A DNA stretch of 42,148 nt from an uncultured Gemmiger sp. (GTDB taxonomy: Bacteria > Bacillota > Clostridia > Oscillospirales > Ruminococcaceae). The stretch lies in contig CALXHS010000015.1 in assembly GCA_944388165.1 (NCBI GenBank), forward strand, positions 1 to 42,148, in the 5' to 3' direction. Below, piece by piece: positions 2,115-20,765 of this stretch. Position 1 is the first letter of the stretch. Every line of letters starts with the position of its first letter. The translations under genes and the position numbers were made by a program. Below the pieces are notes generated by a model. That model was not told where the DNA came from. It did not search any database and saw nothing but the letters and a program-made list of their open reading frames with translations.

Positions 2115-3140
2115 ATGCCAAACCGAAACAAAATCGAGCGCAGCGCCAACTATAATTATTATGCAGATATTTTGTGGTGCTGTGTGCCGCTGATGGCCAT
2201 GGCCTGGTTTTTCTATGGCCCCCGGCCCATCCTGCTCATGCTGGTGGGCCTGTTCACCGCTTACGTGTGCGACTGCCTGGTCACCCCGCTGCACGGGGCA
2301 GGGTATCGTCCCCACGAACCGTCCAGCGAATGTTTTGCCGCCCTCATCGTGCTAATGATGCCAGCGTCGGTGTCCTACTTCATGGTGGTGGCCGCGGTCA
2401 TCGTGGCGGTACTGGTCAAGGAGACCTTCGGCGGTGAAGGCCACTATCCCTTCCATCCCGCGGCGGCGGGCGTGGCGGTGGCGGCCCTTTCCTGGCCGGA
2501 CCAGCTCACCCGTTATCCCACCCCGGGCACCGTTCTGCCTTTGTGGGGCAACACCACCGATACCCTCACCACCGGTATGAACACCACTCTGTCCGGCGGC
2601 GGTCTGCCTTCCGCCACCACCATGAATCTGCTCACCGGCAACGTGGTGGGACCTTTGGGCACCGGGGCATTTCTGGTCATTGGGGCCTGCGGGCTGTTTC
2701 TGCTCTGCCGGGGCCATCTGAAGCTGTCCACGTTGCTGCCGTATCTCATCGTCTGCGTGGCGGTGCCCTGGCTGCTGCCCAACCTGAACGACCTGCCCAC
2801 GTTCAGCTTCCCCTGGGAGTTCGTGCGTCAGCGCGTCTATCTGGAAAAATTCATCATCCTCACCGGCGGTATGGCCTTCGGCGGGGTGTTCCTGATCTGT
2901 GAACCTGTTACCCAGCCCAACCGTTTTACCAGCCGTGTGATCTACGGCCTGCTGCTGGGCCTGGCCACCACCGTGTTCCGCTATAACACCGTCTACGAGG
3001 TGGGCGTCTGCTTTGCATTGCTCATCGTGGGTGCCGTGCCGGAATGGCTGGACCGCGTATCCCGCCGTGCCGAGCGCATGAAGTTTATGAAGAAGGAGGC
3101 GAAACGGATTGCAAAACGAGCAAAACCGGAAATCCTCTAA
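2115..3140 (+). CDS. RnfD-like membrane protein (second, divergent copy)
   Basis: A 341-residue polytopic protein of the RnfD/NqrB family. Stretches such as VKETFGGEG...FHPAAAG and the C-terminal GGMAFGGVFLICEPVTQP align with KQLFGG...NPALVG and GGLMFGAVFMATDYVTSP in the complete Rnf operon at 15.7-20.8 kb. In family members a Thr in a D-x-x-S-G-A-T motif carries covalent FMN attached by ApbE. Here the aligned site is GGLPSAT (residues 162-168): the AT remains but the Asp and Ser are gone, so flavinylation is uncertain. The C-terminal tail is strongly basic. The start has AAAGGAGA upstream, and the end overlaps the next gene by 32 bases. Role unknown; membrane location is secure. Confidence 0.82.
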   Translation: MPNRNKIERSANYNYYADILWCCVPLMAMAWFFYGPRPILLMLVGLFTAYVCDCLVTPLHGAGYRPHEPSSECFAALIVLMMPASVSYFMVVAAVIVAVLVKETFGGEGHYPFHPAAAGVAVAALSWPDQLTRYPTPGTVLPLWGNTTDTLTTGMNTTLSGGGLPSATTMNLLTGNVVGPLGTGAFLVIGACGLFLLCRGHLKLSTLLPYLIVCVAVPWLLPNLNDLPTFSFPWEFVRQRVYLEKFIILTGGMAFGGVFLICEPVTQPNRFTSRVIYGLLLGLATTVFRYNTVYEVGVCFALLIVGAVPEWLDRVSRRAERMKFMKKEAKRIAKRAKPEIL

Positions 3141-4041
3141 ACCCGCCGGGCGTCCGGTCCGTAAGAAAAAGAACCAGCCGGAACAGTCCCAGACCGTTAT
3201 CATTCCCCAGATTTCTCCCGAAGTGCTGGAACGTGCCCGCTGCGCTGCTGCCGAGGGCAAGACTCCCCAGCAGATCGACCAGGAGGCCGCCCAGGCTGCT
3301 GCCGAACAGGCAGCCCAGACCCAGGCCGCCCCGGCGGAAGCTGTCCGTCCCGCCCCTCAGCCCAAACCCAGCCGCCCCGCCCGCAAGACCCGGGCAGAGG
3401 CCGAAGCCGAACTGGCCCAGAACATCCACGACGATCACCTGTGGCTGAACAACCCGGTCATGGTCCGCGGCCTGGGCCTGGCGCCCATTGTGGCCATGGC
3501 CAGTGACGGCGACCGCGCGCTGATGCTCTGCGTGCTGTCCATTCTGCTGCTCACCGCCACCCGCATGCTGGCGGTGGCCATCTGCCACATCACAGGCAAC
3601 CGTTTCCGCCCCGTGGTGTACGCCTATTCCGCCGCCCTCATCTATATCCCGGTGTACATCCTCATGTACAATATCTTCGGCAACAACCTGTCCATTATGG
3701 GTATCTATCTGCCCATGATGGTGGTGGAGCCGGTCATTATCAAACGTATGGAAGCCACCGAGCTGGAATCCATCGGCGAGGCGTTCCGCCGCGGCATCAA
3801 CAACACCGTGGGCCTCTGTGTGGCCATTATGCTGGTGGGCGTCCTGCGGGAACTGCTGGCTTACGGCACCGTTTTTGAAAATCCGGTTCTGTCGGTGGGG
3901 CTGCTGCCTCTGGCCGCCCAGCCCGCCGGCGGTTTCCTGCTGCTGGGCCTGATCGCCGCCGGCTGGACCGCTGTGGGCAATGCCTATGTGCATTATAAAC
4001 AGGAGGAGGTGCGTCACCTGTATGCTGACCGCAAGCACTGA
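3109..4041 (+). CDS. RnfE-like membrane protein with long N-terminal extension, lacking Fe-S cysteines
   Basis: A 310-residue protein starting with TTG, chosen because AAGGAGG lies 9 bases upstream. Residues 1 to about 108 are a hydrophilic Ala/Gln/Pro-rich extension with basic patches, absent from ordinary RnfE (about 200-230 residues). From residue 115 (NPVM) it aligns with the RnfE encoded at 18586-19272. In RnfE/NqrD the two membrane-helix cysteines (C28/29 and C112 in the local RnfE) hold a [2Fe-2S] cluster. Here they align with GLA (123-125) and EP (207-208), so both are lost. It overlaps both neighbours, suggesting translational coupling. It may scaffold or be a repurposed Rnf subunit; electron transfer through the known cluster looks impossible. 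Confidence 0.8.
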   Translation: MQNEQNRKSSKPAGRPVRKKKNQPEQSQTVIIPQISPEVLERARCAAAEGKTPQQIDQEAAQAAAEQAAQTQAAPAEAVRPAPQPKPSRPARKTRAEAEAELAQNIHDDHLWLNNPVMVRGLGLAPIVAMASDGDRALMLCVLSILLLTATRMLAVAICHITGNRFRPVVYAYSAALIYIPVYILMYNIFGNNLSIMGIYLPMMVVEPVIIKRMEATELESIGEAFRRGINNTVGLCVAIMLVGVLRELLAYGTVFENPVLSVGLLPLAAQPAGGFLLLGLIAAGWTAVGNAYVHYKQEEVRHLYADRKH

Positions 4042-4672
4042 TCTGACGGTTTTCCAGGGCGTGGCGCAGTTCATCTCCTATGCCATCCTGGCCATCTTTG
4101 CGGAAAACGTGGTTTTCTCCCGGGCCATGGGCGTGTCCCGCCTGATCAAGCTGGTGGGCGACCCCGACGTGCGTACCTGGCAGTACTGCACCCCCGTGAT
4201 TCTGGTGCAGCTGCTCAGTGCCCCCCTGGGCTGGGCCTGCATGGTCTATGTCTCCCCGGTGGTGCGGGATGCTTTGCCGGAATGGCTGCCCCTCGCCGCA
4301 CTTCGTCCCATTCTGTATCTGACCTGCGCGGTCATTGCCATGGGCGTGGTGTGGTTGCTGCTGGCTTTCCTGCCGGCGGCCCACCGTGCGGCCTGCCGGG
4401 AACAGCTGCCCCTGGCCACCTGCACCTGCAGTGTGCTGGGTACCTTGCTGCTGTGCGCCAACCAGAACTATGACCTGCTGCAAAGCACCGCTTTCGGCTT
4501 CGGCAGCGGTGTGGGCTACCTGTTTGCCGTGCTGGTGGTGGACGAAGGCCGCCGCCGTCTGGGCAGTAAGGACGTGCCCGCCATCTTCCGCGGCCTGCCC
4601 AGCTCGCTGATTTATATCGGCATCCTGTCCCTGGCCATCTATGGCCTGGTGGGGCATGGCGTGGCACGGTAA
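4022..4672 (+). CDS. RnfA-like membrane protein (divergent copy)
   Basis: A 216-residue polytopic protein resembling RnfA/NqrE. I chose the ATG at 4022, 12 bases after AGGAGGAGG, rather than an in-frame ATG at 3980 that has no ribosome binding site. The N-terminal helix (FAENVVFSRAMGVSRLI) aligns with NNYVLVQFLGICPFLGV of the RnfA at 19269, and SVLG matches CVLG. The first cluster-ligand cysteine (C29 in RnfA) is replaced by Ser39. A Cys aligned with the second remains (C136, in the ATCTCSVLG stretch). It overlaps the preceding gene by 20 bases. With its D- and E-like neighbours it would form an Rnf-like membrane core without the B, C and G subunits. Confidence 0.78.
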   Translation: MLTASTDLTVFQGVAQFISYAILAIFAENVVFSRAMGVSRLIKLVGDPDVRTWQYCTPVILVQLLSAPLGWACMVYVSPVVRDALPEWLPLAALRPILYLTCAVIAMGVVWLLLAFLPAAHRAACREQLPLATCTCSVLGTLLLCANQNYDLLQSTAFGFGSGVGYLFAVLVVDEGRRRLGSKDVPAIFRGLPSSLIYIGILSLAIYGLVGHGVAR

Positions 4673-6020: not shown

Positions 6021-6581
6021 ATGAGCATGCCGAACAACAAACCCGCCCAACCCCAGCAGAATCAGAATAAGGAGAAAGCCTCCGGCGAACAGGAACAGCA
6101 CCGCCGCCGTCGCCGCCGTTCCCGCGGCGGGCAAGGTGGTGCCCAGCAGGGCCAGGCCGCAGCCAAGACGGCCCAGCAGCCCCAGGGCAAAAACGCCCCT
6201 GCCGCCGAGAAGAACGCCCCCGCCAAAAAGAGCCGGGGCGGCCAGAATAACGGGCAGAACAACGGCCAGACCGGCAGCCAGAACAATAACGGCCGCCGCC
6301 AGCCGCAGAAGCCCCAGGAACCCAAGAACCAGCGCCGTACCGGGACGGAACAACAGCAGCGTCCTGCCCGTCAGCCGGAAAATCAGCCCGGCCGCCGGGC
6401 CAATGCCTCCCGTCCCCGCCGGGAATCCCAGGCGGAGGATGTGGGCCTGCTGCTCATCACCCGCCGCCCGCCCAAGCAGAAGTTTGCCAATTTTGAAGAG
6501 TACATTGCTGCCCACGGCGGCGTGACCGTGCCGGTGGAGGGGGACACTGTGCCCGCCGAGACCCCGGCTGACGCCGAATGA
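6021..6581 (+). CDS. Basic low-complexity Q/N/RG-rich protein
   Basis: A 186-residue protein of unknown function. It has no membrane segment. Residues about 1-140 are low complexity: Pro/Gln/Asn start, a run of six arginines followed by SRGG, RGG-like and QNNGQN repeats, then Arg/Gln/Pro mixtures. The last 45 residues look folded and less biased (VGLLLITRRPPKQ, FANFEEYIAAHGG). Such composition is typical of RNA-binding disordered tails, which is an inference only. It starts behind AGGAAGAAGAGG, 39 bases after the DUF1015 gene, and its stop overlaps the rlmA start (ATGA), so it is translated with an rRNA methyltransferase. Confidence 0.8.
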   Translation: MSMPNNKPAQPQQNQNKEKASGEQEQHRRRRRRSRGGQGGAQQGQAAAKTAQQPQGKNAPAAEKNAPAKKSRGGQNNGQNNGQTGSQNNNGRRQPQKPQEPKNQRRTGTEQQQRPARQPENQPGRRANASRPRRESQAEDVGLLLITRRPPKQKFANFEEYIAAHGGVTVPVEGDTVPAETPADAE

Positions 6582-15678: not shown

Positions 15679-17013
15679 ATGTTAAAGATCCTGAAGCGTT
15701 CCGCCAAAGGCGCCCATGTCCCGCATGAGAAAGCAACGGCCGATATGCCCACCGTACGCATGCCGGTACCGGAAAACGTTGTCATTCCCATGTCGATGCA
15801 CATCGGCGCACCGGCGGAGCCCGTCGTCAAAAAGGGCGATCAGGTGTTCGTGGGCACTCTGATCGGCAAAGCCGGCGGCTTTGTCAGCGCCAACATCCAC
15901 TCCAGCGTTTCGGGCGTTGTGGTTGACGTTGCGCCTATGCGGATGGTCAACGGCCCGGTGTGCCAGGCAGTGGCCATCAAGTGCGACGGCAACCAGACGG
16001 TGGACCCGGCCTGCGTGCCGCCCACCGTCACCGATAAAGAGTCGCTGCTGGCGGCGGTACAGGCCTGCGGCCTGGTGGGCGTGGGCGGCGCAGGCTTCCC
16101 GACCCATGTGAAGCTGATGGCCAAGGTGGACACTCTGCTCATCAACGCGGCGGAGTGCGAACCCTACCTGACCACCGACGCCCGGGAAATGCTGGAATGC
16201 AGCGAGACCATCCTCTCCGGCATTGAAGCGGTGATGAAGTACTGCGAGATCCCGCACTGCATCATCGGCATCGAGCGCAACAAGCCCGCCTGCATCGACC
16301 TGATGTGCTCCCTGACCCGGGACATGAAGGGCGTTTCGGTCAAGCCGCTGCCCATGCGGTACCCCCAGGGCGCTGAAAAGACCCTGGTGGAGACCTGCAC
16401 CGGCCGGGAAGTGCCCCAGATCAACAAGGCGGGCAAACCGGGCCTGCCCGCGGACTGCGGCTGCATCGTCATGAACGTCACTTCCGTGTCCACCCTGGGC
16501 AAGTACCTCAAGACCGGCATTCCTCTGGTCAGCAAGCGCGTTACCGTGGACGGCGACGCCATTGCCAAGCCCCAGAACATCGAAGTGCCCATCGGCACTT
16601 TGTACCGCGATGTGATCGAAGCCTGCGGCGGCATCAAGCCCGACGTGGAACTGGGCAAGATCATCTTCGGCGGTCCCATGATGGGCGGTGCTTCGCCCAG
16701 TGCCGACTTCCCGGTGCTCAAGCAGAACAACGGCCTGCTGCTGTTCAGCCGCAAAGCCGCCATTCTGCCCGCTCCCCAGCCCTGCATCCGCTGCGGCCGG
16801 TGCATCAGCGCCTGCCCCATGGGTCTGGAGCCTGTGGTCATTGTGGAAAATCATACCAAGAAGGATACCGACGCCCTGAAAAAGCTCTGCGTGGATCTGT
16901 GCGTGGCCTGCGGCAGCTGCACCTATGTCTGCCCGGCCAAGCGGCCTGTTTCCCAGGCTGTGACCCAGGCCAAGGGCTGGTATCTGAACGAAATGCGCAA
17001 GGGAGGTAAGTAA
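15679..17013 (+). CDS. rnfC: Rnf complex subunit C (NADH-binding, Fe-S)
   Basis: The NADH-facing peripheral subunit of the Rnf ferredoxin:NAD+ oxidoreductase, which couples electron flow to Na+ or H+ export. The 444 residues include a NADH/FMN-binding part (GVGGAGFPTHVKL near 135-150) and two ferredoxin-type clusters near the C-terminus, CIRCGRCISACP and CVACGSCTYVCP, each with a full set of cysteines. It is the first gene of rnfCDGEAB, behind a strong promoter and palindrome. The length matches the shorter clostridial RnfC without the long repeat tail of proteobacterial forms. Confidence 0.96.
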   Translation: MLKILKRSAKGAHVPHEKATADMPTVRMPVPENVVIPMSMHIGAPAEPVVKKGDQVFVGTLIGKAGGFVSANIHSSVSGVVVDVAPMRMVNGPVCQAVAIKCDGNQTVDPACVPPTVTDKESLLAAVQACGLVGVGGAGFPTHVKLMAKVDTLLINAAECEPYLTTDAREMLECSETILSGIEAVMKYCEIPHCIIGIERNKPACIDLMCSLTRDMKGVSVKPLPMRYPQGAEKTLVETCTGREVPQINKAGKPGLPADCGCIVMNVTSVSTLGKYLKTGIPLVSKRVTVDGDAIAKPQNIEVPIGTLYRDVIEACGGIKPDVELGKIIFGGPMMGGASPSADFPVLKQNNGLLLFSRKAAILPAPQPCIRCGRCISACPMGLEPVVIVENHTKKDTDALKKLCVDLCVACGSCTYVCPAKRPVSQAVTQAKGWYLNEMRKGGK

Positions 17014-17015
17014 CG

Positions 17016-17999
17016 ATGGACCAGGTTTTGTTCGTAACTGCCTCGCCCCACATTCGGGACGATTCCAGCACCCGCGGCCTGATGGGCAATGTGCTCAAGG
17101 CCCTGGTGCCCTGTGTCATCGCGGCGGCCATGATCTTCGGCTACGAAGCTCTCATCAGCGTGGCCGTCACCACGCTGGCCTGCGTGGCTTTTGAGTATCT
17201 GTACTGCCTGATTATGAAGAAACCCAACCCGGTGGGCGACCTTTCCGCCTGTGTCACCGGCGTGATCCTGGCGCTGAACTTCCCCGTGGGCCTGCCCCTG
17301 TGGATCGGCGTGGTGGGTGCCTTTGTGGCCATCGTCATCATCAAGCAGCTGTTCGGCGGCATCGGCTTCAACTTTGCCAACCCCGCTCTGGTGGGCCGTA
17401 TCGTGCTGTTCCTGGGCTTCACCGCCCGTATGACCGCTTACGTCTACCCCGATATGGCGGTGGACGCCCTGGCCGAAGCCACCCCGCTGGCCGACACCGT
17501 GGACAAGGCTTCCGTCAGCCTGATGGACCTGTTCCTGGGCCTGCACGGCGGCATGATGGGTGAGACCTGCATCCTGGCCATCCTGCTGGGCCTGGCCTAT
17601 CTGCTGGCCACTGGCACCATCGGCTTTGCCATTCCGGGCAGCATCGTTGGCACCGTCTTCGTTCTGTCCTGGCTGGCTACCGGCAGCCTGCACGCCGCTG
17701 TGGCCGAGATCATGGCTGGCGGCCTGATGTTCGGCGCCGTCTTTATGGCCACCGACTACGTCACCAGCCCCTTCACTACTAAGGGCAAGCTGATGTACGG
17801 CATCTTCATCGGCCTGGTCACCTTCGCCATCCGCTACTTCGGCAGCATGAACGAAGGCATGAGCTTCGCCATCCTGCTGGGCAACCTGATGGTGCCCTGG
17901 TTCAACGCCTGGGGCCACCAGATCCCGCTGGGCTTCAAGAAAGCCAAGAAACAGAAGAAGGCCGCCAAAGAAGCGGCCAAGGAAGGGGGCAACGCCTGA
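17016..17999 (+). CDS. rnfD: Rnf complex subunit D (membrane flavoprotein)
   Basis: A 327-residue polytopic subunit that carries a covalent FMN in characterised complexes. The flavinylation region reads DALAEATPL (near residues 150-158): the acceptor Thr is kept, while the usual S-G before A-T is A-E. NPALVGRIVLF and YVTSPFTTKGKLMYG are typical family blocks. The C-terminus is a basic Lys/Ala tail. It starts 2 bases after rnfC behind GGGAGG and overlaps rnfG by one base. Confidence 0.95.
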   Translation: MDQVLFVTASPHIRDDSSTRGLMGNVLKALVPCVIAAAMIFGYEALISVAVTTLACVAFEYLYCLIMKKPNPVGDLSACVTGVILALNFPVGLPLWIGVVGAFVAIVIIKQLFGGIGFNFANPALVGRIVLFLGFTARMTAYVYPDMAVDALAEATPLADTVDKASVSLMDLFLGLHGGMMGETCILAILLGLAYLLATGTIGFAIPGSIVGTVFVLSWLATGSLHAAVAEIMAGGLMFGAVFMATDYVTSPFTTKGKLMYGIFIGLVTFAIRYFGSMNEGMSFAILLGNLMVPWFNAWGHQIPLGFKKAKKQKKAAKEAAKEGGNA

Positions 18000-18583
18000 T
18001 GTCTGAGAACAATGCGAAGACCCCTGCGCAGGAATCCGCCTTCAAGGCAATGATCTACCCGGTCATTATCCTGGTAGTCATCTGCGTGGTGTGCAGCGCG
18101 GCCCTGGCGGCTCTGAATGATGTGACCAAGCCCATCATCGCCGCCAACCAGGAAGCCGCCACCCAGGCCGCCTACATGGGCGTTCTGCCCGGTGTGACCG
18201 ATGCTTCCACCCTGACCACCGTGGAAAACCTGCAGACCGCCGGTGTGCAGGGCGCCGTCACCACCCCCGACGGGCTGGTGGCCATCAAGGTTTCCGCCGC
18301 CGGTTACAGCGGCAAGGAAGTGGTGGTCTATGTTTCCTTTGACGCTTCCGGCAAGATCCTGGCCACCAGCGTGGACGCTTCCACCCAGACCACCGGCATC
18401 GGTTCCAAGACCCAGGACGAGAACTTCTGGTCCGGTTTCCTGGGCTGGGATGCCTCCGAACATGTGTCTGCCGGCAACCCGGTGGATACCATCGCCGGTG
18501 CGACTGTGTCCTCCAACGCGGTCATCTCCGCTTACAACAGCGCCATTGACTGCTACAACAATGAGATCAAGGGGGTGGCCTGA
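17999..18583 (+). CDS. rnfG: Rnf complex subunit G (FMN-binding)
   Basis: A 194-residue protein with one N-terminal membrane helix (about 17-40) and an extracytoplasmic FMN-binding domain. The covalent FMN site is DTIAGATVSS near residue 161-170, with the acceptor Thr in place and Ala where Ser is usual. GIGSKTQDENFW is another family hallmark. The ATG overlaps the rnfD stop and is preceded by GGAAGGGGG. No apbE gene for attaching FMN is present in the window, so it must be encoded elsewhere. Confidence 0.94.
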   Translation: MSENNAKTPAQESAFKAMIYPVIILVVICVVCSAALAALNDVTKPIIAANQEAATQAAYMGVLPGVTDASTLTTVENLQTAGVQGAVTTPDGLVAIKVSAAGYSGKEVVVYVSFDASGKILATSVDASTQTTGIGSKTQDENFWSGFLGWDASEHVSAGNPVDTIAGATVSSNAVISAYNSAIDCYNNEIKGVA

Positions 18584-18585
18584 CC

Positions 18586-19272
18586 ATGAGCGAAAAGCAA
18601 AGCCTGTGGAAGATTTTCACCGCCGGTATCATTCGTGAAAACCCGGTTCTGCGCCTGGTGCTGGGCTGCTGCTCGGTGCTGGCCGTTACCACCACCGTGT
18701 CCGGCGCTCTGGGCATGGGTCTGGCCATGACCTTTGTTCTGGTCTGCTCCAACATCGTGATTTCCGCCTTGCGCAAGGTTATTCCCGCCAAGGTGCACCT
18801 GCCCTGCTACATCGTCATCATCGCCACCTTCGTGACGGTGGTGCAGATGGTGCTGGAAGCCTATGCCCAGGACCTGTACAACACCCTGGGCGTGTTCCTG
18901 GCCCTGATCGTGGTCAACTGCATCATTCTGGGCCGTGCCGAAATGTTCGCCTGCAAGCACACCGTGCTGGAATCCGCCGTGGACGGTATCGGCATGGGCG
19001 TGGGCTACATCATCACCATGCTGCTCATGTCCTCCATCCGTGAGATCATCGGCAACGGTTCCTGGATGGGCATCACCATCATTCCCGAGAGCGTGGACCG
19101 TATGGGCCTGATGAACCAGGCCCCCGGCGGCTTCTTCGTCTTCGGCTGCCTGATGGCCCTGTGCGTGTTCATTGAGAAAAAGACCAACCATCCCATTGAG
19201 CGCAAGACCTGCGGCGAAGTGATGATGGATGAGATCGACGCCGCCAAAACCGAAGGGGGTGACCAGGCATGA
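18586..19272 (+). CDS. rnfE: Rnf complex subunit E
   Basis: A 228-residue polytopic subunit that with RnfA holds an intramembrane [2Fe-2S] cluster. The ligand cysteines are visible in LVLGCCSVLAV (C28/C29) and VVNCIILGRAE (C112). The ATG follows GGGGGTGG in the rnfG end and overlaps rnfA by four bases at its own end. It is the intact counterpart of the RnfE-like gene at 3109, which lacks these cysteines. Confidence 0.95.
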   Translation: MSEKQSLWKIFTAGIIRENPVLRLVLGCCSVLAVTTTVSGALGMGLAMTFVLVCSNIVISALRKVIPAKVHLPCYIVIIATFVTVVQMVLEAYAQDLYNTLGVFLALIVVNCIILGRAEMFACKHTVLESAVDGIGMGVGYIITMLLMSSIREIIGNGSWMGITIIPESVDRMGLMNQAPGGFFVFGCLMALCVFIEKKTNHPIERKTCGEVMMDEIDAAKTEGGDQA

Positions 19273-19907
19273 GCAACTTTGCGGTATTTGCGACCATCTT
19301 CTTTAACCTGATCCTGGTCAACAACTACGTTCTGGTCCAGTTCCTGGGCATCTGCCCCTTCCTGGGCGTTTCCAAAAAGGTGGACTCCTCCACCGGCATG
19401 GGCCTGGCGGTCATCTTCGTCATGGTCATTGCCACGGCGGTCACCTTCCCGCTGCAGATCTTCCTGCTGGATGCCTATGACCTGGGCTACATGCAGACCG
19501 TTATCTTCATCCTGGTCATCGCCGTGCTGGTCCAGCTCATCGAGATCACCCTGAAGAAGTACGTGCCTGCCCTGTACACCGCTCTGGGTGTTTACCTGCC
19601 CCTGATCACCACCAACTGCTGCGTGCTGGGCGTGACCATTCTGGCTGTGCAGGACTACTCCAAGATCGTGGAAAGCCAGGGCTTCGGCCTGGCTTACGCC
19701 GAAGCTCTGATCTGCGCCGCCGGTGCCGGCGTGGGCTTCCTGGTTGCCATGCTGCTGTTCTGCGGTGTGCGCCAGCGTGTGGAATCCGCCAACCCGCCGG
19801 AAAGTTTCAAGGGTCTGCCCATCACCCTGGTGGCTGCTGCCATCACTTCCATGAGCTTCATGGGCTTCGGCGGCCTGGTTGAAAACATCATCAACGCACT
19901 GGTCTGA
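19269..19907 (+). CDS. rnfA: Rnf complex subunit A
   Basis: A 212-residue six-helix membrane subunit. The signature NNYVLVQFLGICPFLGVS contains the ligand Cys29, and TTNCCVLGV contains Cys117/118; these pair with those of RnfE around the [2Fe-2S] cluster. It is translationally coupled to rnfE (ATG within the last codons of rnfE, behind GGGGGTGA). Length and motifs are entirely standard. Confidence 0.96.
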   Translation: MSNFAVFATIFFNLILVNNYVLVQFLGICPFLGVSKKVDSSTGMGLAVIFVMVIATAVTFPLQIFLLDAYDLGYMQTVIFILVIAVLVQLIEITLKKYVPALYTALGVYLPLITTNCCVLGVTILAVQDYSKIVESQGFGLAYAEALICAAGAGVGFLVAMLLFCGVRQRVESANPPESFKGLPITLVAAAITSMSFMGFGGLVENIINALV

Positions 19908-19928
19908 TAGAAGGAGGGGGACTAAGAT

Positions 19929-20765
19929 ATGAATCCGATCATTCTTGCGGTCGCCGTCCTGGCGGTGCTGGGCCTTGTGGGCAGCATCGTGCTGGTGCTG
20001 GCTTCCAAGTTCATGGCGGTGTACGAAGATCCGCGCATCGCCCAGATCACCGACTGTCTGGCCGGTGCCAACTGCGGCGGCTGCGGCTATGCCGGCTGTG
20101 CCGACTACGCCAAGGCCATTGTAGAAGACGGCGCGCCCACCTTCAAGTGCGCGCCCGGCGGCGACAAGGCTGCCGATGCCATCAACACCATCATGGGTAC
20201 CGAGACCAGCGACCGTCCCAGCCTGAAGGCTGTGGTGCTGTGCAACGGCGGCGAAAACTGCGGCAAGCGCTTCAACTACCAGGGCATCCAGACCTGCGCC
20301 GCGGCGGCTTCTGTGGCCGGCGGCCCCAGCGCCTGCTCTTTCGGCTGCCTGGGCCTGGGTGACTGCACCCGCGCCTGCATGTTCGACGCCATCCATGTGA
20401 AGAACGGCGTGGCCGTGGTGGACCGTACCAAGTGCACCGGCTGCTCCGCCTGCATGAACGTCTGCCCGCGCCATGTCATCGACATGAAGCCCATCGCGCC
20501 CCAGCCGGTGGTGGAATGCTCCAACACCGAACGCGGCGCCGCGGTGAACAAGACCTGCAAGGTGGGCTGCATCGCCTGCGGTCTGTGCGTCAAGAACTGC
20601 CCGCAGCAGGCCGTCTTCCTCAAGAACAACGTGGCCGTCATCGACTACACCAAGTGCAACGGCTGTGGTACCTGCGTGACCAAGTGCCCGAAAAAGGTCA
20701 TCCACTGGGTGGAAGGCAAACCCACCTCCGTGGACGCCCCGGTGCCCGAACACCAGGTCCTGTAA
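19929..20765 (+). CDS. rnfB: Rnf complex subunit B (ferredoxin-interacting polyferredoxin)
   Basis: A 278-residue protein with an N-terminal membrane anchor (about 3-28), then the RnfB-type cluster motif CLAGANCGGCGYAGC, and several ferredoxin clusters including CTGCSACMNVCP, CIACGLCVKNCP and CNGCGTCVTKCP, plus an extra Cys-rich CSFGCLGLGDCTRAC. It accepts electrons from reduced ferredoxin at the cytoplasmic face. A strong AGGAGGGGG precedes the ATG. It ends the operon, which closes with a terminator. The C-terminal tail is short compared with some clostridial RnfB. Confidence 0.95.
   Translation: MNPIILAVAVLAVLGLVGSIVLVLASKFMAVYEDPRIAQITDCLAGANCGGCGYAGCADYAKAIVEDGAPTFKCAPGGDKAADAINTIMGTETSDRPSLKAVVLCNGGENCGKRFNYQGIQTCAAAASVAGGPSACSFGCLGLGDCTRACMFDAIHVKNGVAVVDRTKCTGCSACMNVCPRHVIDMKPIAPQPVVECSNTERGAAVNKTCKVGCIACGLCVKNCPQQAVFLKNNVAVIDYTKCNGCGTCVTKCPKKVIHWVEGKPTSVDAPVPEHQVL

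Follow-up and report, generated by a model that had tools for sequence, protein, structure and literature searches.

A D-E-A paralogue of the Rnf membrane core with predicted loss of redox sites in Gemmiger and other Oscillospirales

The 42,148-nucleotide contig CALXHS010000015.1 of an uncultured Gemmiger sp. (assembly GCA_944388165.1; the whole stretch is called the window below) encodes, in addition to a complete rnf operon, three overlapping genes for membrane proteins resembling the Rnf subunits D, E and A, here named D2, E2 and A2. As judged from aligned residues, the membrane part of this module has lost the redox sites of Rnf, and the C-like subunit (C2) that accompanies some of its relatives has kept its Fe-S motifs but lost the loop for flavin and reduced nicotinamide adenine dinucleotide (NADH). 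It is well supported, and very probable, that electrons cannot take the Rnf path through the window module. A first-pass annotation, made from the window sequence alone, had proposed a core that is unable to carry the known electron path and yet is preserved. This proposal is supported by ligand loss at 50 of 50 readable loci, by signs of selection, by a single clade in the E, A and joint trees, by the predicted fold of E2 and by four genomes in which the module occurs without canonical RnfA and RnfE.

D2 (2115..3140, +; 341 residues) is an RnfD/NqrB-like membrane protein that lacks the Thr motif for attachment of flavin mononucleotide (FMN) and has PF03116 as its sole Pfam content (E 2.8e-44). 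E2 (3109..4041, +; 310 residues) is RnfE/NqrD-like (PF02508, E 1.7e-25), and A2 (3980..4672, +; 230 residues) is RnfA/NqrE-like (PF02508, E 3.6e-20; NqrE chain, 3.8e-16 by phmmer). The D2/E2 and E2/A2 overlaps are 32 and 62 bases, respectively. The start codon of E2 is TTG, preceded by AAGGAGG, and its product consists of a low-complexity N-terminal extension of about 100 residues followed by a membrane core (3418-4038). The extension of the E-like proteins is charged and Ala/Pro-rich; it is encoded at 3109-3417 in the window and reaches about 300 residues in another locus (L035, 6857-7759). The scores of D2, E2 and A2 (152.1, 90.5 and 73.1 bits) exceed the Pfam gathering cut-offs (27.7, 23.8 and 23.8), and together with the open reading frames they bear out the earlier description of three overlapping RnfD/E/A-like genes at 2115-4672. 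The NCBIfam cut-offs for rnfD, rnfE and rnfA were missed widely (99.6/207.05, 61.2/213.4 and 69.9/229.3 bits), and the module is also below those for nqrD (35.7/244.85) and nqrE (68.1/247.55). Among the canonical proteins of the window, used as a control, RnfD and RnfE pass, and RnfA (229.0/229.3 bits) and RnfG (75.9/102 bits) do not. Therefore, only the size of the shortfall is informative for D2, E2 and A2.

The comparator is the complete rnfCDGEAB operon (15679..20765, +) located 11 kb downstream of D2-E2-A2, which the first-pass annotation had correctly recognized. Its genes start at 15679 (C), 17016 (D), 17999 (G), 18586 (E), 19269 (A) and 19929 (B); D, G, E and A were identified with Pfam, B with the rnfB model, and C with a C-like profile and its sequence. 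The E and A products retain all four cluster ligands. The window genome (2.38 Mb, 94% complete) has exactly four PF02508 matches, two per set, and a profile search of this genome found no RnfC-like gene besides the canonical C. The canonical RnfD of the window (17016-17999) carries LAEATPL at its flavinylation site; Ser/Thr-Gly before Ala-Thr, which we take to be the usual motif, is absent from it.

The cofactor sites were compared over 53 non-redundant loci (window included), obtained from 62 by removing identical or contained sequences; three loci (L104, L129 and L131) are in neither the divergent nor the canonical set. Counts are of sequences and not of independent events, as four of the loci (group f7) are close copies from one genus and the Gemmiger group contributes 20 of the 53. 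Ligand positions in the window were assigned by alignment to solved structures and to 31 canonical relatives. Canonical rows with a letter have Cys at each of the four [2Fe-2S] ligand positions (E, 84/84 and 84/84; A, 70/70 and 69/69). At the first RnfE position, E2 has Ala125 (3481..3483, +), where one of the 53 divergent rows has Cys. The Asn-Cys pair holding the second ligand is replaced by Glu207-Pro208 (3727..3732, +), a candidate new ion or proton site, and Cys is found there in none of the 53. At the first RnfA position, A2 has Ser53 (4136..4138, +; codon counted by hand), with Cys in 0/52 divergent rows. A2 retains Cys150 (4427..4429, +) at the second position, as do 30 of 52 divergent rows in all. 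The losses previously read by eye, CC to LA and NC to EP in E2 (A125 and P208 here) and C to S in A2 with the second Cys kept, are thus those recovered by the alignments. All four positions can be read at 50 loci, where L096 keeps two Cys and the others one or none.

Other cysteines at the cluster site would speak for an ordinary Rnf, and none is conserved there. A cluster held by alternative cysteines was rejected, as no new Cys column exists at the ligand sites. The description of the module as cysteine-poor does not hold as a general label, given ten Cys in D2, ten in A2 and four in E2; the loss concerns the ligands specifically. The most conserved new Cys is D2 Cys192 (2688-2690), which is Cys in 44/53 divergent D proteins where the canonical residue is Gly (85/87). 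It is missing from all four f7 rows, and a new metal site is not proposed.

Flavin sites are similarly affected. RnfD of Acetobacterium woodii carries covalent FMN on T156 and binds riboflavin at N123 and D249 (PMC11889175). The T156 position falls at Gly154-Met155 of D2 (2574..2579, +), the Thr aligning with Met155 or Gly154 depending on the alignment, and in this gappy stretch Thr is present in 3/53 divergent rows versus 85/87 canonical rows, the remaining two having Ser. The flavinylation site had been described as degraded by loss of Asp and Ser; the degradation stands, and the key residue is the attachment Thr rather than either of those. The riboflavin ligands correspond to His114 (2454..2456, +; Asn in 25/53 divergent and 87/87 canonical rows) and Glu263 (2901..2903, +; Asp in 24/53 and 86/87). 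Both ligands are retained at 22 of the 53 loci, comprising 10 of the 12 C-bearing loci and 12 C-less loci. The C-bearing locus L037 has Thr-Pro at the FMN site in another alignment, its state changing with the alignment. All 12 C-like proteins have the eight [4Fe-4S] Cys in two motifs, and their GxGGAGF FMN/NADH loop is replaced.

Four genomes of one genus (f7: G042, G066, G085 and G130; 90-98% complete) encode C-D-E-A with the divergent PF02508 pair only. Searches of these genomes detected no FMN_bind (RnfG) domain, no ApbE and no rnfB match over the cut-off. All of the rnfB matches begin at model position 103 or later, in the ferredoxin part; as at least one protein that is probably a canonical RnfB (G265) falls short of the cut-off, these genomes were judged by the model region matched. 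Because canonical RnfA/E, an RnfG domain, ApbE and any match to the RnfB-specific region are lacking, the module there cannot borrow partners, be flavinylated by ApbE or help a canonical Rnf. The redox parts that remain are the Fe-S motifs of the C-like protein and the riboflavin ligands of D only. Another genome (G035, 84% complete) has a weak pair alone but also ApbE and a below-cut-off RnfB-like match, and nothing was concluded from it. A strong canonical PF02508 pair is also present in 27 of the 32 carrier genomes examined.

Building trees had been recommended in the first-pass annotation. The divergent loci form one clade in the E tree (support 0.996), in the A tree (0.943) and in a joint D+E+A tree (1.0; 50 divergent and 70 canonical rows), D alone being less clear. 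The FastTree D tree puts the four f7 D rows with two canonical rows (0.913), apart from the other 49. In a mixture-model tree for D (32/53 divergent and 24/87 canonical rows), all the divergent rows fell to the same side of one branch, which had a support of 90.9 in the Shimodaira-Hasegawa-like approximate likelihood ratio test (SH-aLRT), which is below the starred level. The C-like gene is on the earliest branches and missing from the crown; one key fork is unsupported (0.005), and therefore the number of C losses was not counted. The ratio of nonsynonymous to synonymous substitution rates (dN/dS; Nei-Gojobori method, NG86) was 0.061-0.371 in 24 values for D, E and A from eight pairs, and 0.08 and 0.19 for D2 against two relatives; the eight pairs were chosen among close relatives, and overlapping-frame stretches are included. 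These values indicate purifying selection on D, E and A in the compared pairs, in keeping with the preservation claimed for the module. A pseudogene was rejected on the basis of these ratios and the open reading frames.

Relatives of the module recur through Oscillospirales and, in profile searches at the strict thresholds used, appear nowhere else. The thresholds (1e-36 and 1e-46) were chosen to exclude canonical Rnf, so that remoter members can escape. A divergent-A profile at 1e-36 matched 70 of 394 genomes of the order, with canonical matches mixed in near the threshold, and among 398 genomes across the phylum it matched G000 and G059 only. A divergent-E profile at 1e-46, run on 391 genomes of the class, matched five, each of them from Oscillospirales, and missed the known carrier G103 (L100). 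Of 35 genomes from the same genus, the window genome among them, 29 have four PF02508 genes. The 20 loci fetched from the same-genus scan are all divergent, as are 19 of the 20 from the order scan, the other one (L104) being canonical. A search for D relatives in named genomes (best 80 of 563) added members from records of Gemmiger, Subdoligranulum, Ruthenibacterium, Oscillospiraceae, Clostridium methylpentosum (DSM 5476; L123, a DUF4015-bearing locus), other Clostridia, Eubacteriales, Bacillota and unnamed bacteria; its other sorted rows come from other phyla and are Rnf operons that are either canonical or lack G. Among the named genomes, the nearest relatives of the window genome are Gemmiger, Subdoligranulum and Oscillospiraceae records. 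The module occurs in several families of the order, and its carriers include named gut commensals such as Gemmiger formicilis ATCC 27749.

Three of the G-less or reduced rnf loci have a layout of their own. C-D-E-A-B is found in L131 (3643-7937) and L144 (4621-8915), and L129 (631-4104) shows C-D-E-A only; the records are NPL-UPA2, Bacillota HKB212 and Firmicutes UBA994. In these loci D and E are back to back with no rnfG between them, and the four cluster Cys and an ATP-type FMN-Thr motif are kept.

Outside Gemmiger, the usual gene order is rpe, often an opposite-strand mecA, then D2-E2-A2 with or without a preceding C2, and a DUF4015 gene; in the f7 loci rpe is not adjacent. The absence of B, C and G alongside the module, noted originally for the window, is correct there. 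For the family it holds for B and G only, since 12 of the 53 loci have a C-like gene, in each case without the FMN/NADH loop. The first-pass annotation had named B, C and G genes beside orthologues as a sign of an ordinary Rnf, and the C-like genes go half of the way towards that. No RnfB or RnfG was found beside the module in any of the 53 stretches by phmmer with the B and G of the window (its canonical operon excluded), a search whose G query misses some true rnfG in canonical loci (e.g. L138 and L142). D and E mostly abut or overlap in the divergent loci, which leaves no space for G between them. DUF4015 lies downstream on the same strand in 25 of the 30 non-Gemmiger loci that have A2 and enough downstream sequence, 23 times within 150 bp; the tally leaves aside 4 of the 53 loci, without A2 or sufficient sequence. 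Its identity (PF13200) was confirmed by Pfam in 4/4 products tested, and an N-terminal hydrophobic stretch (19-residue hydropathy of at least 2.0) is present in the 24 rows examined. No DUF4015 was found in the window genome. Among relatives in the order, the older layout is C-D-E-A, with neither B nor G and in most cases with DUF4015 behind it, and in the window genome D-E-A is all that is left.

The first-pass annotation had suggested rpe and DUF1015 as conserved neighbours to look for; the operon-like partner outside Gemmiger is DUF4015. Although rpe is a frequent neighbour, mecA on the opposite strand intervenes in many loci, and it was rejected as a functional partner; DUF1015 was rejected because DUF4015, where present, is what follows A2. 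In L097 (4160-5923) and L102 (8599-10455), DUF4015 is itself followed by a gene for a protein that is phosphoglucomutase-like by eye.

We propose that the module, a paralogue of the membrane core of Rnf, was withdrawn from electron transfer and retained for another job. Its fold and retained residues suggest, as the reading that we tentatively favour, an Rnf-derived non-redox membrane device of the alternating-access type, acting on an ion or a solute and probably ion-coupled and envelope-related. D2, E2 and A2 would assemble into a membrane heterotrimer like that of their Rnf counterparts. Its A/E half, which provides an alternating-access Na+ path in one Rnf model, may now move an ion, or a solute coupled to one, with no redox reaction to drive it. 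In the Gemmiger and Ruthenibacterium clade, a Glu/Asp next to where the cluster would sit may replace the negative charge of the reduced cluster. The cargo or benefit might concern the cell envelope, a guess prompted by the partner DUF4015 as a membrane-anchored glycosidase-like protein, and by its fusion to a YkyA domain, which is also fused to polysaccharide deacetylases (figure legend in PMC12700454). In C-bearing lineages, one may guess that the Fe-S subunit could gate the core by redox state.

The AlphaFold2 model of E2 (mean predicted local distance difference test score, pLDDT, 79.9) has as its best PDB match the RnfE of A. woodii (9eri_E; E 7.2e-6, template modelling (TM) scores 0.71/0.74). 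It keeps two interrupted helices (13-19/22-27 and 97-102/105-110) with breaks at the former cluster positions. R67 and E115 of A. woodii RnfE form an ion pair tied to Na+ entry, and the changes R67A, E115Q and E115K impair or abolish growth (PMC11889175). In the divergent E proteins, R67 is retained in 51/53 and E115 in 40/53, and the gates are mostly hydrophobic. On the A side, N112 is retained in 41/52. Of the residues of A reported to contact the B8 domain of RnfB, E158 has gone, with mostly Arg in its place, and position 32 seldom has the Lys of K32. Position 107 of E, which adjoins the lost Cys108 and is Asn in canonical proteins, is Glu or Asp in 26 of 51 loci, all of which lack C2 and have a changed riboflavin ligand in D.

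Several observations weigh against this interpretation. The Na+-path residues of A are mostly lost (E88 kept in 4/52, T110 in 18/52 and T111 in 1/52, the last with mostly Phe, Cys, Leu or Tyr in its place), and a core with these substitutions could be closed rather than conducting. The retained residues are weak evidence, as just 62/84 canonical rows have Arg at R67, and the A. woodii E115A mutant grows like the wild type. In A. woodii, Na+ affinity depends on the reduced cluster (PMC11889175). The acidic residue at E position 107 is confined to one clade and counts as one event. The loss of contacts to RnfB is not clean, as the third contact residue, R154, is kept in 24/52 and K32 is Lys in just 39/70 canonical rows. 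The A2 model is weaker (mean pLDDT 65), and the fold comparison is that of E2 only. Finally, DUF4015 is absent at 19/19 Gemmiger-group loci and 5/30 others.

A bolder version of the favoured reading would see in the module a third fate of rnf besides Rnf and Nqr. The redox-free machine would ancestrally have consisted of C-D-E-A and DUF4015, with the A/E pair as an ion-coupled envelope transporter or conduit, a carboxylate replacing the Fe-S cluster, and C as a former redox-sensing gate; this is possible but doubtful. The eight Fe-S Cys found in every C2 are the strongest argument that redox chemistry or sensing persisted during part of this history.

The first-pass annotation had suggested a transporter, a chaperone or a scaffold. 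A role as helper of Rnf is excluded for the f7 genus, and transporter and scaffold both stay in play. As a scaffold, the module would be an inert membrane structure that anchors or positions DUF4015 (and C where present) without transport; a sub-version would have it help to assemble canonical Rnf or act as a decoy for it. In favour of a scaffold, the cofactor sites are lost throughout, as are most A-side Na+ residues; DUF4015 is directly downstream at most non-Gemmiger loci, and NqrA offers the precedent of a subunit that has no cofactor and no known direct function and is nevertheless kept (PMC12174285). However, D, E and A of Gemmiger are under purifying selection at a locus without DUF4015, both DUF4015 and a second C are missing from the window genome, and the four genomes that lack canonical RnfA/E speak against the Rnf-helper version there. 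We regard the scaffold as unlikely, although it deserves to be taken seriously.

Residual electron transfer might persist in the C-bearing systems, with a soluble donor feeding the two [4Fe-4S] clusters of C, riboflavin in D as the next carrier and an acceptor beyond it, and with the C-less modules as later derivatives. The complete set of Fe-S Cys in 12/12 C-like proteins, the two riboflavin ligands kept in most C-bearing loci and the Thr-Pro of L037 in one alignment are compatible with such a chain, and two-subunit Nqr/Rnf-like systems without the FMN-Thr are thought to use a non-covalent flavin (PMC11334425). An onward path is not known, however, since C lacks the FMN/NADH loop, A/E lack the cluster, and the f7 genomes lack ApbE and FMN_bind. 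Moreover, the riboflavin ligands do not strictly track C, being kept at C-less loci too, and the idea is inapplicable to the window, where no second C was found. Residual transfer is rather improbable in our estimation.

It is very improbable that the module is an ordinary Rnf core to which the canonical operon of its cell lends RnfB, RnfC and RnfG. Most carrier genomes examined do encode a canonical pair, but the ligands for the obligatory A/E step are absent, and borrowing is refuted for the four f7 genomes, where canonical partners are absent. A decaying duplicate heading for loss would fit the stepwise disappearance of cofactor sites and then of C and DUF4015, but it is hardly credible for open reading frames that show low dN/dS in 24 comparisons and are carried by several families.

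The module is homologous to Rnf (RnfABCDGE) in D, E and A, with C in 12/53 loci, and shares the predicted fold of E2 and the order C-D-E-A, which is rnfCDGEA minus G. It differs in the absence of adjacent B and G, of the A/E ligands and of the FMN/NADH loop of C, in the loss of most FMN-Thr residues in D, and in its occurrence without canonical RnfA/E in four genomes. The Na+-translocating Nqr (Na+-NQR; NqrABCDEF) is likewise an rnf derivative without rnfB, and its RnfC homologue is cofactor-free (PMC4014512, PMC12174285). Nqr, however, still has the [2Fe-2S] cluster in D/E and flavins on NqrB and NqrC, and it has gained NqrF; the module is the reverse, with the Fe-S motifs of C kept and the membrane sites lost. 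Two-subunit flavinylated Nqr/Rnf-like systems also have a PF03116 subunit without the FMN-Thr (Meheust et al. 2021, PMC8238504; mSystems 2024, PMC11334425), but they combine an NqrC/RnfG-type FMN subunit with an NAD-binding domain (PF03116-PF00175 fusion), whereas the module lacks both of these and has E and A. For DUF4015, a putative glycosyl hydrolase and the partner in most non-Gemmiger loci, no association with Rnf is mentioned in the one passage of PMC12700454 considered. In the open-access literature searched, we found no description of a C-D-E-A or D-E-A system that lacks B and G. Known homologues exist for every part, and functionally the module may prove to be a new kind.

The ion path of Rnf and Nqr is disputed, being placed either in RnfA/E or in RnfD/NqrB (PMC11889175, PMC12174285). 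A D-E-A core that naturally lacks cofactors and is preserved across an order of bacteria is an evolutionary "minus redox" control for this question. If the module still moves ions, the A/E or the D path could be studied in it without electrons. It is also a warning for annotation. Matches to PF02508 and PF03116 do not prove an energy-conserving Rnf, as the f7 genomes pass the PF02508 cut-off.

Between the module and the canonical operon, the window contains a 186-residue low-complexity open reading frame (6021-6581) without a Pfam match. Its matches in six loci of other genera are open reading frames of 566-662 residues. The one tested (L088) has DEAD and Helicase_C domains, suggesting that the window frame may be a detached helicase tail.

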